Of a stretch of 64,000 nt of DNA, positions 1-3,484 are shown one piece after another. The stretch is from Bryobacterales bacterium. Lineage in GTDB: Bacteria > Acidobacteriota > Terriglobia > Bryobacterales > UBA6623. The DNA is taken from the NCBI GenBank assembly GCA_022823865.1, contig JAJEHF010000104.1, forward strand, positions 1 through 64,000. Reading direction: 5' to 3'. Position 1 is the first letter of the stretch; each line of letters starts with the position of its first letter. A program made the translations under genes and the position numbers. A model generated the notes under the pieces. The model was not told the origin of the DNA. It saw only the letters and a program-made list of their open reading frames with translations, and did no database searches.

Positions 1-215
1 ACATCAACTCCTCCTGTTCCCGGAAGTCCGAACTCGGACTCCCAGAATTGGAGGATAGGGCAGTATCGGGCCGGTCAGGACCAGACGAACCGGCCATAAT
101 TTCCGGAATTTGGGCGGTCAGATTTTCCGGAACTCGCAACGCCCACCGTGCTATCGCCATACATGGTGGTCGAGGGTGTGGAGCGGCGGATGGTCAACCC
201 ATAAAGCCGAGGGCG

Positions 216-1037
216 TCAAAACGCCAGTTCCTGCTGGAAGTCCCAAGGTATGGGGAATACCCCGATAATTACCCAAGGATTAGGTGCAACGAAATGAAAT
301 TGCTGGGTTGTCCCCAAGAAAAAATGCAAATCAGTCTTGATGAATTCATCGAGGTACTTCTGCCGAACCTTCTTGAGCGCCCGTTCTCGGTCACCTCCAG
401 AGTCCTCTAGGCAGTTCCAGTAGAGGGCTCCAATCTGCCACTCGAGAATCTGAAGTTCACTCGTCGTACCGTGAACGTCCTCAAACCGATAAGAAAAGTT
501 GTATGGCAGCTTTGGGATGATCTTGAAAGTCTCTCGCCATGAATTGTCATCAAATAGGTCGTACTGGCTGTAATAGCTCCTCATTTTCTGCAACTTCTCT
601 TGGTCCCACTCCGGAGTGTCTTCTTCCCATCTGAAATCGAGGATCTTCTTTGGCTTGAATACCGTTAGCGATATCTCGTTGGCCTTTGCTGCATCGATGA
701 TCTCCGCCAATGAGTCAAAGACGGCAGCGTTGTTTAGAAGGATCCGCCTACGTTCCCGCCAGTTGTTGGCGGTGCTCACGTGGTCCACTGGACGAATCAA
801 AGTTGGATCGATTGGCCGAAAAGTCTCCGGTCTTGGATCCGACTGATTTCGCTTCAAGGGTGCCTCGACCCAATCAAACAATTTGTACTGCTCCGATTCA
901 CCGAGTCGCCTAAATGGAACCGGGTAGAGGCGAACCCAAGTGCCATCTTCACGAACACCAGCAGTGCAGACAGTCTCCCCGTACTTCGTCGAGAGCGTGG
1001 GGTACGTCTTTACGGTGATCAATAAGCGTTCACTCAT
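216..1037 (-). CDS. Uncharacterised protein paired with a DUF488 gene
   Basis: Protein of about 273 residues that I cannot assign to a named family. The N-terminus (about residues 1-45) is strand-rich and reads like a small beta domain, with the segments LLITVKTYPTLS and WVRLYPVPFR. The middle is charged and helical, and the last 35 residues return to hydrophobic strands (HFFLGT, WVIIGVFPIP). There is no signal peptide or membrane helix, so it is probably cytoplasmic. The ATG at 1037 is preferred over the GTG at 1040 because an AAGG lies just upstream. It starts 9 bases after the stop of the DUF488 gene on the same strand, so the two are almost certainly co-transcribed. A role with DUF488 in nucleic-acid metabolism or defence is inference only. 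Confidence 0.75.
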   Translation of the reverse strand: MSERLLITVKTYPTLSTKYGETVCTAGVREDGTWVRLYPVPFRRLGESEQYKLFDWVEAPLKRNQSDPRPETFRPIDPTLIRPVDHVSTANNWRERRRILLNNAAVFDSLAEIIDAAKANEISLTVFKPKKILDFRWEEDTPEWDQEKLQKMRSYYSQYDLFDDNSWRETFKIIPKLPYNFSYRFEDVHGTTSELQILEWQIGALYWNCLEDSGGDRERALKKVRQKYLDEFIKTDLHFFLGTTQQFHFVAPNPWVIIGVFPIPWDFQQELAF

Positions 1038-1046
1038 CACCTTGGC

Positions 1047-1970
1047 TCACAGGTGCTTGACTCTTGCAATCGCTCCGCCATCGATTCCTATCGCGCTAGC
1101 GACGCAGCTCCGATGACAGCAGTGTGGTAGTCGCTCGAAGCACGTAAGGGCAACTCGCCCGCCGGAATTGATCCAGTTCCGAATCGTCGCAATTTCATGT
1201 TCTTGCTCAGGCAAGACCTCCCTCTCATACCTGTCGAACAGCCTATCGTAGTCTGCCTGCGACCTGAGATTTCTGCGGTGTTCCCCTGCCACTCCCAATT
1301 GGGGCAAATGCTCGTATCGAATTCCAACACCAGTGCAGGCATGCGCAAGAGTCTTCTTGGAAAAACCATACTTGCGGCTGATCGCATTCCTCCGCACGTC
1401 GCAAAGCAGAGTCACGCCCGCCAAGAGCAACGCATTCAAGTAGCTCTCGATGGTCCGCCCTTCGTAACCAATCGTGGTTAGCGGAGCGGGAGTTGCGATT
1501 GAGCGAGCAGACTCGATCTTTCGTAACGTAACGTTGTCACCACGGAGAATCTTGTCTGCGATCTCACTGCGAATTGCGAAGTACGGGAACTGGCGGTAGG
1601 TTGCCGCGATCAAGTGGTCGCCACGAAGATTCCGATTCCTTCGGACGAAATCCGTCATGTGTGGCTCGTGTGCGCGACCTGCAATCATCCGTCCTTTGTC
1701 CGAGAGGATCCAGCGTCCGTCGATGTCGTTCAGTAGTTGGAGAGCGACAAGTTTCCTGCGATCGGCATATGAAGTGAATGAGAACGCACCGAAGCGATAT
1801 GGAACGAAGTCATAGATTTGTGGCACGTTGGGTTCTCGGCAATAGAGGAACAGCAGCTTTTGGAAGTCTAAGTTGCCAACTCGCCCTCCAAGTAAGTCAA
1901 GCAGTCCAAGTAAGTGTCGCTGCCTGTTTGGGAGCCGCAGTTTGCCCAGTCCAGTTGAGATCTCAGTCAT
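1047..1970 (-). CDS. DUF488 protein with N-terminal winged-helix/Panacea-like domain
   Basis: 307 residues. Residues about 160-300 match the DUF488 pattern: TIGYEGRTIE opening, a DVRRNAISRKYGF segment, a YEHLPQLG segment, and the C-terminal ALTCFERLPHCCHR with the conserved Cys and the CHR motif. DUF488 proteins are small cytoplasmic proteins of poorly known activity. Residues about 1-130 are extra: FQKLLFLYC followed by YDFVPYRFGAFSF resembles the opening of DUF4065/Panacea (SocA-like) domains seen in toxin-antitoxin proteins, but that match is by eye. It is the first gene of a two-gene unit with the uncharacterised protein downstream. The ATG at 1970 has an AGGA about eight bases upstream. 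Confidence 0.75.
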   Translation of the reverse strand: MTEISTGLGKLRLPNRQRHLLGLLDLLGGRVGNLDFQKLLFLYCREPNVPQIYDFVPYRFGAFSFTSYADRRKLVALQLLNDIDGRWILSDKGRMIAGRAHEPHMTDFVRRNRNLRGDHLIAATYRQFPYFAIRSEIADKILRGDNVTLRKIESARSIATPAPLTTIGYEGRTIESYLNALLLAGVTLLCDVRRNAISRKYGFSKKTLAHACTGVGIRYEHLPQLGVAGEHRRNLRSQADYDRLFDRYEREVLPEQEHEIATIRNWINSGGRVALTCFERLPHCCHRSCVASAIGIDGGAIARVKHL

Positions 1971-2491
1971 CCTCAGGTCCTTGGTCTGACTCAGTTGGTC
2001 TCAGCGAGGTAATTGGCATCATGTCAAGAGGTAGGTCAGCGTCTCGACGTGCCAATACGCGCCCGTATCAGAACAGGTGACTTCGCACACGAATCGGACA
2101 CATCCGTTGGGGCTTGGCTTCTCTTCCACGATTCGCATCAGTGAGCGTTGCAAACGCCTACTCGTTAGTGACTTCTCCCACGACGATCAGGTCTTGCTTC
2201 GCCCAAGCGACCATGAGATCAAATTAAACACAGGAATGTCAAACATTGGAGCGCTTATATGTTTAGAGCCATTGCGTCCACCTCCACCGCCGGGTGCTGC
2301 GGCCAGTCGGCCGTCTCTGGTGACGCTACGACGCTCCGGACGGTAACACCTCACGATTGCGCGTTGAGGGGCGGGCCTCCTCTTCGACATTGTGCCTCCC
2401 TCCGCAATCATCAGGCAGTGATGCTGCTGCGGCATCAGACTCTATGAGGTAATGCGCCAGTCATTCTGATGTCACTGGTACCAGAACCGCG
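1971..2491. other. Intergenic stretch without a supported gene
   Basis: About 520 bases between the DUF488 gene and the NIPSNAP-like gene, both read leftward. A TTGACA -35-like hexamer (minus strand, 2022-2027) lies upstream of the DUF488 gene, but no convincing -10 follows. Open frames here show no family resemblance and I see no repeats or RNA genes. Confidence 0.4.
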
Positions 2492-3484
2492 TTACTCGAT
2501 TGCGCGGTACGCTTCGGGCAGGCCTGGGAGGAATTTGGGCGGGCTCTGGTACAGGTAGCCCTCAAGGAACGTCACGGTCTGGCTTCGACTCGCCCTTGAA
2601 AGGGCATCCAAGCTAGCCTTGTAGGCCGCGTAGTCAGGGCCGTCTCCTCCCATGCTCACGATTTGGTCCGGGCGGGCGGCCTTCCAGTGCTCGTAGCCGG
2701 CGTAGCGCACCATCAAGAACACTTCGTCGTACTCAGAGCTCTCCTCGAATCCACTCTCCGGCGGGTAGACAGCCTTCCACTGGCCGACGATGCGGGCACC
2801 GACTTTTTCGAGGTATGGCCAGATCCCTTCGGCGCCGCCTCTCAGCAGGCCGTCCGCTGCGCCCTTCTCCACCTCCCACTTCATCAGAGCGATGATCTCG
2901 CGAGCGGGCCAATTCCGGTCGTTGCGGACAGGGCGCGGCCTGCCTTCGGGTGCCGCCTCGGCCGGTTCGTAGGTCTCGTCCAGCGCGGGCATGTAATACA
3001 CCTGCGTGGTCGCGGTCACGCCCTCGAGGAAATATGCGCCGCTCGAGTCCGCCACATAGTGGTTGCGGGCACTGAGGGCTTCGCGGTTGCGCCGGTAGTC
3101 GGAGCCGTTTCCGCCCAGCAGCAGGTGGCCTTGGCGGGTTGCCTTCCAGTGCTCGTAGCTGGCGTAGCGGGCTAGGCGGTACCCGTGGTCGAACGCAGGA
3201 TCCGCGCTCGAGCCGTCCGGGTGGACCACCATCCATTGCCCGACAATGCGGCTTCCGATCTTCTCGAACCAAGGCCAGACGCCATCCCGGCTCAGCCGGA
3301 GGTAGGCGTCGTGTCCTCCCTTGTGAAACTTCTGGTGGCGCAGGACTAGCAACTCCGTTCCTTCTCTGGGCACGTCGTTGCGCACTGGCCGCGGCGGATC
3401 CGCCGGCTGGCCGAACGCCAGCACGGCCAGCGCCGTCGTGGCCAGGGTCGCTGCAATCGGGGCATTGCGGGGGAATTCGGGCAT
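2492..3484 (-). CDS. Secreted protein with two NIPSNAP-like repeats
   Basis: 330 residues with an N-terminal signal-like stretch (about residues 9-25, IAATLATTALAVLAFGQ) pointing to export. The body is an internal duplication. Residues about 35-165 and 185-325 both carry an ARIVGQW/SRIVGQW core, a RYA(S/G)YEHWKA segment and a GGNG/GGDG loop, typical of NIPSNAP-like ferredoxin-fold domains. Such proteins are frequent in Acidobacteria and Planctomycetes and their substrates are unknown. A second NIPSNAP-type gene starts at the right edge of the window, with a Tat signal instead. The fold assignment is from motif resemblance and the enzymatic role is not known. Confidence 0.7.
   Translation of the reverse strand: MPEFPRNAPIAATLATTALAVLAFGQPADPPRPVRNDVPREGTELLVLRHQKFHKGGHDAYLRLSRDGVWPWFEKIGSRIVGQWMVVHPDGSSADPAFDHGYRLARYASYEHWKATRQGHLLLGGNGSDYRRNREALSARNHYVADSSGAYFLEGVTATTQVYYMPALDETYEPAEAAPEGRPRPVRNDRNWPAREIIALMKWEVEKGAADGLLRGGAEGIWPYLEKVGARIVGQWKAVYPPESGFEESSEYDEVFLMVRYAGYEHWKAARPDQIVSMGGDGPDYAAYKASLDALSRASRSQTVTFLEGYLYQSPPKFLPGLPEAYRAIE

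Follow-up and report, generated by a model that had tools for sequence, protein, structure and literature searches.

A DUF488 gene and its predicted dual-OB-fold partner: candidate clamp-tethered module within a catalogued family of phage-defence candidates

SocAB, PanAT and DarTG are among the known systems that most resemble the gene pair considered here. The toxin SocB binds the sliding clamp via the usual clamp motif, and the review in question gives the bacterial clamp consensus as QL(S/D)LF (PMC9690074). SocA is a Panacea protein; in the same source the antitoxin-first order is the commoner one among PanAT pairs (943 v 325), and a GPV signature matters for neutralisation in one tested PanA (PMC8832971). 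DarG unites a sequestering domain and an eraser (PMC11481870). In archaea, ParB-CTPase/DUF488 fusions have been reported, and cytidine triphosphate binding was shown for a fusion of DUF488 to a helix-turn-helix (HTH), in a passage that names no partner protein (PMC12704722). We analysed a stretch of 64,000 nucleotides (the window), which is the start of contig C193 (G000:C193:1-64000) in a draft genome of ~6.07 Mb from a Bryobacterales bacterium. Near its left end lie two adjoining genes, A, encoding a DUF488 protein with an additional N-terminal domain, and B, encoding a protein with predicted tandem oligonucleotide/oligosaccharide-binding (OB) folds. The reading we prefer, tentatively and at rather less than an even chance, is that B tethers the DUF488 enzyme A to replicating DNA, the two forming a mobile defence or conflict module directed against phages or plasmids.

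As judged from profile matches, the pair is an ordinary member of PDC-M19, a catalogued phage-defence candidate that comes without a mechanism. In PADLOC-DB 2.0, A is matched by the PDC-M19A model PDLC04505 (E 6.3e-96, residues 15-306 of 307) and B by the PDC-M19B model PDLC04508 (E 3.1e-105, residues 1-271 of 274). The PHROGs families of A and B, 14939 and 25907, are both labelled as of unknown function; neither protein has an NCBIfam match, and the Pfam scan gave none for B at E up to 1. Neither the name PDC-M19 nor a function for DUF488 was found in the literature searched, whose scope excludes most subscription papers and bioRxiv preprints. A preliminary description, made from the letters of the window, had proposed a two-gene unit with a 9-base gap and a 273-residue partner, and the open reading frames agree with it when A is read at 1047..1970 and B from the ATG at 1037; a GTG one codon earlier gives 274 residues and a gap of 6 bases. 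The left flank of gene B is absent because the contig starts 215 bases from the end of that gene. While the pair itself was already catalogued, its link to DuOB proteins, the clamp-type motifs, the kinship of the N-terminal domain of A and an insertion of ~4.4 kb with empty sites are new here.

The two genes are almost always found together. With B as bait for the collection of loci, 12 of the 297 genomes in a sample of the phylum were found to possess it, and all 12 have an adjoining DUF488 gene; DUF488 was found in 65 of 119 genomes sampled from the phylum. Scanning species genomes with B gave at least 542 relatives, of which the best 80 were kept, and 24 further relatives came from viral contigs. 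Same-place duplicates were dropped and near-identical contigs kept, giving 116 loci. DUF488 adjoins B in 115 of them, and the sole exception (L049) is a contig edge, the contig starting 50 bases before B. Such a neighbourhood survey had been set beforehand as a test of whether the partner is conserved beside DUF488, and it upheld the claim. Of the 115 pairs, 107 have A ahead of B on one strand (94 with long A, 13 with short A) and 8 are convergent; Rhizobium and Burkholderia plasmids show the convergent arrangement. The existence of convergent pairs argues that two proteins, and not merely an operon, are kept together. In a tree of 117 B proteins, loci with short A lie mostly near the archaeal root and those with long A form one large group, but the tree carries no argument because its deep supports are weak.

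Structure models were made from alignments of B proteins of 255-300 aa only (78 of the 87 listed, the window protein being among the 78 rows) and of A proteins mostly of 280-345 aa. The model of B is rich in beta strands, with a predicted local distance difference test score (pLDDT) of 90.6. Foldseek ranks a murine DNA-binding protein in complex with double-stranded DNA first among PDB matches (4jbm_A, E 7.3e-4), the only one at E up to 0.001, with telomere-type OB proteins ranking after it. With VIA-align, residues 1-93 match the telomere protein TEBP alpha (1k8g_A, Z 8.3, 2.8 A, 86 aligned) and a human single-stranded-DNA-binding protein (5d8e_B, Z 8.1, 2.4 A, 82 aligned). Residues 103-269 match RMI1 (4day_A, Z 7.2, 3.8 A, 114 aligned), which is weak alone; over its whole length B resembles HIN domains (8i6k_A, Z 7.8, 5.3 A, 158 aligned), and among viral structure models baculovirus LEF-3 was matched. 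The libraries used were limited, and families outside them are possible. By sequence, neither B nor A finds a solved structure at a meaningful E-value, 7yk3_B appearing only at E 1.7. The B of the window shows no match to Pfam DuOB (PF22557); among its relatives, that of L022 (G354) exceeds the cut-off with 28.1 against 27 bits. Aligned to ten DuOB proteins, the B family profile gave an hhalign probability of 90.7% (E 1.3e-6) over 70 columns, covering the first OB fold only, and 20 shuffled controls reached at most 0.7%. Accordingly, B is described here as having predicted tandem OB folds and as a homologue of DuOB over the first of them.

Motifs of sliding-clamp type are found at two places in B. 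The counts cover those 110 of the 116 B proteins that reach 230 aa. The strict internal motif is present in 84 of the 110 and the strict tail motif in 45, compared with none of 115 A tails and one of 517 tails of neighbouring genes; 94 of the 110 have at least one motif, the tail being taken in its loose or six-residue form and the internal site in its strict form. Among the 78 aligned B proteins, 67 have an internal Qxx[LMIF][FL] and 49 a similar tail motif under a loose pattern. Strict Qxx[LM]F occurs at 96 sites in these sequences, whereas 200 shuffles gave 4.9 on average and never more than 10, and columns 159 and 163 are almost invariant as Q and F. Frequent tails are QLDLF, QLGLF and QASLF, all close to the clamp consensus. 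In the B of the window, QYDLF at residues 159-163 is of the same type and lies where the model has low confidence; the tail QQELAF fits only what we take to be a looser, six-residue form of the clamp motif. The model is least certain in the blocks 151-170 and 271-274, where the two sites are located, and this fits a short linear motif. The variable tail makes the stronger case. DUF488 proteins in general were considered as clamp binders and rejected, the strict motif following CHR in only 2 of 42 from the sampled loci.

The model of protein A has a pLDDT of 94.0 over the whole protein. DUF488 is recognised at residues 174-293 (PF04343, E 3.1e-25, 89.6 bits against a gathering cut-off of 22.2), and the residues D191, R193, Y219, H221, C277, E279, C285, H286 and R287 are invariant in the 80 rows aligned. 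Across the family, C-x-E...CHR is retained in 115 of 115 A proteins, DxR in 114 and YxH in 113, and the conserved cysteine and CHR motif named in the preliminary description are therefore confirmed. The fold matches laforin, a phosphatase of protein tyrosine phosphatase (PTP) type (4r30_A, Z 9.4, 2.9 A, 118 aligned), and the methyltransferase CbiL (8xj3_A, Z 10.1, 3.6 A, 120 aligned). Because DUF488 is about equally close to both, no reaction was assigned to it. PTP-type phosphatases have an HCx5R P-loop, and this is not what DUF488 of A possesses, its C277-x-E279...C285-H-R287 spanning ten residues from the first Cys to the Arg.

The N-terminal domain of A is real: it is modelled with high confidence, and the 73 longer sequences in the alignment of A have it as well. 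Its best PDB match is 7yk3_B (Z 11.4, 3.5 A, 135 aligned), taken as the C-terminal domain of DarG from the paper title and the aligned family rather than from the entry, and the next rows are 6mfv_A and 6lg2_A (Z 8.2 each); Foldseek gave no PDB match for A at E up to 0.001. Against 20 SocA_Panacea sequences hhalign gave 86% (E 4.9e-6, with shuffled controls no higher than 1.2), and against 12 DarG C-terminal domains 67%, the two reference sets themselves aligning at 84%, with unrelated, reversed and shuffled controls at most 5.4%. By these comparisons the domain is a remote relative of both SocA/Panacea and the C-terminal domain of DarG. Canonical membership in Panacea was ruled out, as Pfam PF13274 (SocA_Panacea) does not match A at E up to 1 and the GPV signature is GAF in the window and occurs in none of the 73 long relatives, a simple search for it finding 7 of 20 in our own SocA_Panacea set. 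The Panacea-like domain of the preliminary description thus stands as to fold and profile, an antitoxin domain being its best structural match, but not as a canonical Panacea.

In the tethering proposal, the tandem OB folds of B would bind single-stranded or otherwise exposed DNA, and B would dock on the sliding clamp via its QxxLF motifs. A would be the effector, with DUF488 as an alpha/beta enzyme that has a fixed set of Cys, His, Glu, Asp and Arg residues, carried by B to replicating DNA and probably acting on a nucleic-acid or nucleotide substrate. The SocA/Panacea-like domain may dock on B or keep B inactive until a trigger. The pair, which sits on variable islands, plasmids and prophages, would most likely counter competing phages or plasmids. 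The analysis shows the near-obligate pairing, the domain identities and folds as predictions, the motif enrichment, the invariant residues and the mobility; clamp docking, catalysis, contact between A and B and a part in defence are inferred from these. What this adds is a specific mechanism proposal for DUF488, a widespread family of long-unexplained function for which the pair suggests a role, and a link between two candidate families.

The main rival is a toxin-antitoxin pair like SocAB, given that the toxin of that system binds the clamp and its partner SocA belongs to Panacea. B would then be a toxin that binds the clamp and blocks replication elongation, neutralised by the Panacea-like domain of A. 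We regard this as rather unlikely. The likeness lies in a first gene that encodes a Panacea-related domain and a second whose product has clamp motifs, and the prevailing A-first order is that of most PanAT pairs. However, the Panacea-like domain is here an N-terminal add-on to DUF488, lacks GPV in all long relatives and can be dispensed with in the family: about 20 of the 115 A proteins do without it, archaea have ParB in its place, and the B proteins of several loci with short A still have clamp-type motifs. B is moreover a predicted double OB protein, and the active-site residues of DUF488, needless for a pure binder, are always retained. What the loci have in common is DUF488 with a dual-OB protein, to which the Panacea-like domain is an exchangeable addition. 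This favours a DNA-binding, clamp-docked targeting subunit with an enzyme over a plain toxin-antitoxin pair.

Archaea use PCNA as their clamp. B homologues are found on Sulfolobus and Saccharolobus plasmids, adjoining a ParB gene, and the product of the Sulfolobus neighbour is composed of ParB_N, HTH_ParB and DUF488. Haloquadratum PL100 has B with a ParB-DUF488 gene in reversed order. The archaeal fusions described in PMC12704722 have the same DUF488 partner, adjoining B homologues on Sulfolobus and Haloquadratum plasmids, and hold ParB where A has the Panacea-like domain. The PCNA box is given as Qxx[I/L]xxFF (PMC9690074). Sulfolobales B proteins have QATLDQYI or QATLEQYI in the internal linker and the Natronococcus B ends in QPGLDSF, all PCNA-box-like; a PCNA-like motif in both lineages at once has a shuffle value of 0.001 in a post hoc test. 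This is no more than a hint that some archaeal B proteins have PCNA-box-like motifs in place of beta-clamp motifs. No archaeal relatives were found in the viral contigs searched.

The settings of the pair are mobile. The full-length pair is present in 2 of 11 genomes of the genus (G000, the window's own, and G004), and three others (G009, G010, G001) have an empty site with the flanks 61 to 327 bases apart. At the same site G004 has an insert of ~4.4 kb (L031 8538-12920) comprising A, B and a gene with DUF4062, HATPase and winged HTH domains. The borders are the counterpart (L031:7547-8536) of the window gene at 2492-3484, which has no Pfam match, and a sulfatase gene (L031:12964-14448). The sulfatase counterpart in G000, the other flank, lies on a different contig. 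B is on 23 plasmid records and seven Gordonia phage records. In the one phage record examined, Nymphadora (L135), the B homologue gp43 and the DUF488 protein gp42 are encoded between the immunity repressor and integrase in convergent order. The gp42 gene (L135:6813-7265) is annotated 'HipA toxin', yet its product is DUF488 (PF04343, 1.2e-29).

A role in plasmid or phage maintenance, in which the pair marks or controls replication of its element as a partition or copy-control accessory, is unlikely in our view. The archaeal fusions of DUF488 to ParB_N and HTH_ParB beside B, the plasmid records and a Klebsiella DuOB-DUF488 locus beside parA and mobC all speak for it. Many matches to B are nevertheless on chromosomes or genome contigs of scattered phyla, and in the genus the insert is without replication genes of its own and lies beside metabolic genes. 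Far less probable is a plain accessory role in repairing post-replicative DNA damage, outside any conflict. Repair proteins commonly have OB folds and clamp-type motifs (clamp review, PMC9690074), but the patchy presence in phylum and genus, the empty sites and the carriage on phages and plasmids run against such housekeeping. Least probable of all is a DarTG-like pair in which B modifies DNA, DUF488 of A reverses the modification and the DarG-like domain sequesters B: the best PDB match of that domain and the union of sequestering domain and eraser in DarG favour it, but the enzymatic part of A is DUF488 and not a macrodomain, Pfam finds no DarT in B, whose model resembles tandem OB folds, A proteins lacking the domain still pair with B, and membership in DarTG was ruled out with the fold of one domain alone shared.

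The tethering proposal can be widened through the DuOB proteins. DUF488 is beside DuOB in all ten DuOB loci that supplied the comparison set (L193, L195, L196 and seven plasmids), including one from Moraxella in which a gene annotated 'hypothetical' bears the motif. PDC-M45 models are matched by the DuOB and DUF488 proteins of L193 and by both DUF488 proteins of L195, not by the L195 DuOB itself, and DUF488 of A also matches the PDC-M45B/C models. Because B is homologous to DuOB, PDC-M19 can be joined to PDC-M45, and the two look like branches of one DUF488/dual-OB kind. They share a dual-OB protein adjoining DUF488, but DuOB is smaller, its modules usually have two DUF488 genes or DUF488 with DUF4326, and no Panacea-like domain was seen in them. 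In 3 of the 10 loci (L253, L195, L196) the QxxLF tail is on the DUF488 partner (QLNLF, QKTLF, QKSLF). Three of the seven plasmid loci examined have NotI restriction-modification, csx16/csm6 or cas1-cas2 alongside. PDC-M19 and PDC-M45 might then be one superfamily of clamp-tethered immune machines, spread over bacteria, archaea, plasmids and phages, with an exchangeable regulator (Panacea-like, ParB or none); we hold this to be doubtful. The clamp motif would be on the OB protein, or on DUF488 in some lineages, with bacteria using the beta-clamp type and archaea the PCNA box, so that invaders would be sensed by active replication and DUF488, as an enzymatic effector of a new kind, would be brought to the fork. 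If true, a clamp-guided class would be added to prokaryotic immunity and two separately listed defence candidates would be merged.

Several observations weigh against B as a clamp-docked tether for A in defence. Neither motif is present in 16 of the 110 B proteins. The strict pattern also occurs in 75 of 115 A proteins, and the A of the window holds QKLLF in a helix of its N-terminal domain, so QxxLF may be structural; the pattern alone is no proof, because the B sequences are related and not independent and because of this QKLLF. The OB matches of B are modest, with Z only about 7-8, though the rows concur on OB folds. A Natronococcus plasmid B, outside the 116-locus set, has no DUF488 within 2.5 kb. 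As for archaea, the PCNA-box pattern is loose, matching 43 of 113 bacterial B proteins somewhere, the archaeal test was made post hoc, and the Haloquadratum B has an internal QAKLF and no PCNA box. Defence neighbours were compared with PADLOC in random samples of genes for 120-700 aa, 110 of 315 within 2.5 kb of the pair and 110 of 313 beyond 5 kb. In the near set, up to 4 genes matched models for type I specificity and methylase, and 3 matched mad3 and mad5; the far set gave SoFic in 2 and DRT, HmaA, BrxH and DISARM models in 1 each. Defence genes show no clear excess around the pair over the region 5-10 kb off, these counts coming from redundant family tables. The suggestion in the preliminary description of a defence or nucleic-acid-processing module accordingly finds backing in the PADLOC candidate listing, the mobile settings and the predicted OB folds; among the neighbouring genes, both sets contain defence models.

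Features of the gene pair and its surroundings in the window
Feature	Position	Strand	Basis or description
Gene A (PDC-M19A)	1047..1970	minus	ATG start, 307 aa; SocA/Panacea-like N-terminal domain and DUF488
N-terminal domain of A, residues 13-151	1518..1934	minus	structure match to 7yk3_B; hhalign to SocA_Panacea and DarG C-terminal domain
DUF488 domain of A, residues 160-307	1050..1493	minus	PF04343, invariant columns
Gene B (PDC-M19B)	216..1040	minus	273/274 aa; predicted tandem OB-fold, DuOB superfamily
First predicted OB fold of B, residues 1-93	762..1040	minus	VIA-align structure matches
Second OB-like half of B, residues 103-269	234..734	minus	structure matches, weak alone
Internal sliding-clamp-type motif of B, QYDLF, residues 159-163	552..566	minus	alignment and motif counts
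C-terminal motif of B, QQELAF	219..236	minus	QxxLF at the equivalent tail in many relatives
Variable insertion (~4.4 kb) carrying the pair, part of	1..2489		conserved flank from about 2490

Some neighbouring and related genes deserve mention. In the sister genome, the gene after the pair (L031:10878-12761) combines DUF4062, HATPase_c_4 and a winged helix. The similarity between the window and L031 ends just before this gene, which is therefore not directly after the pair in the window. The DUF4326 genes by DuOB and DUF488 in L250 and L252 end in C-x-C-K-P...CHGD, resembling a variant of the CxE...CHR site, and DUF4326 may represent a second, diverged subunit of DUF488-like type. A DarT gene is present elsewhere in the genome of the window, at G000:C41:3654-4262 (L160), with a DarG-type C-terminal domain in the same locus.

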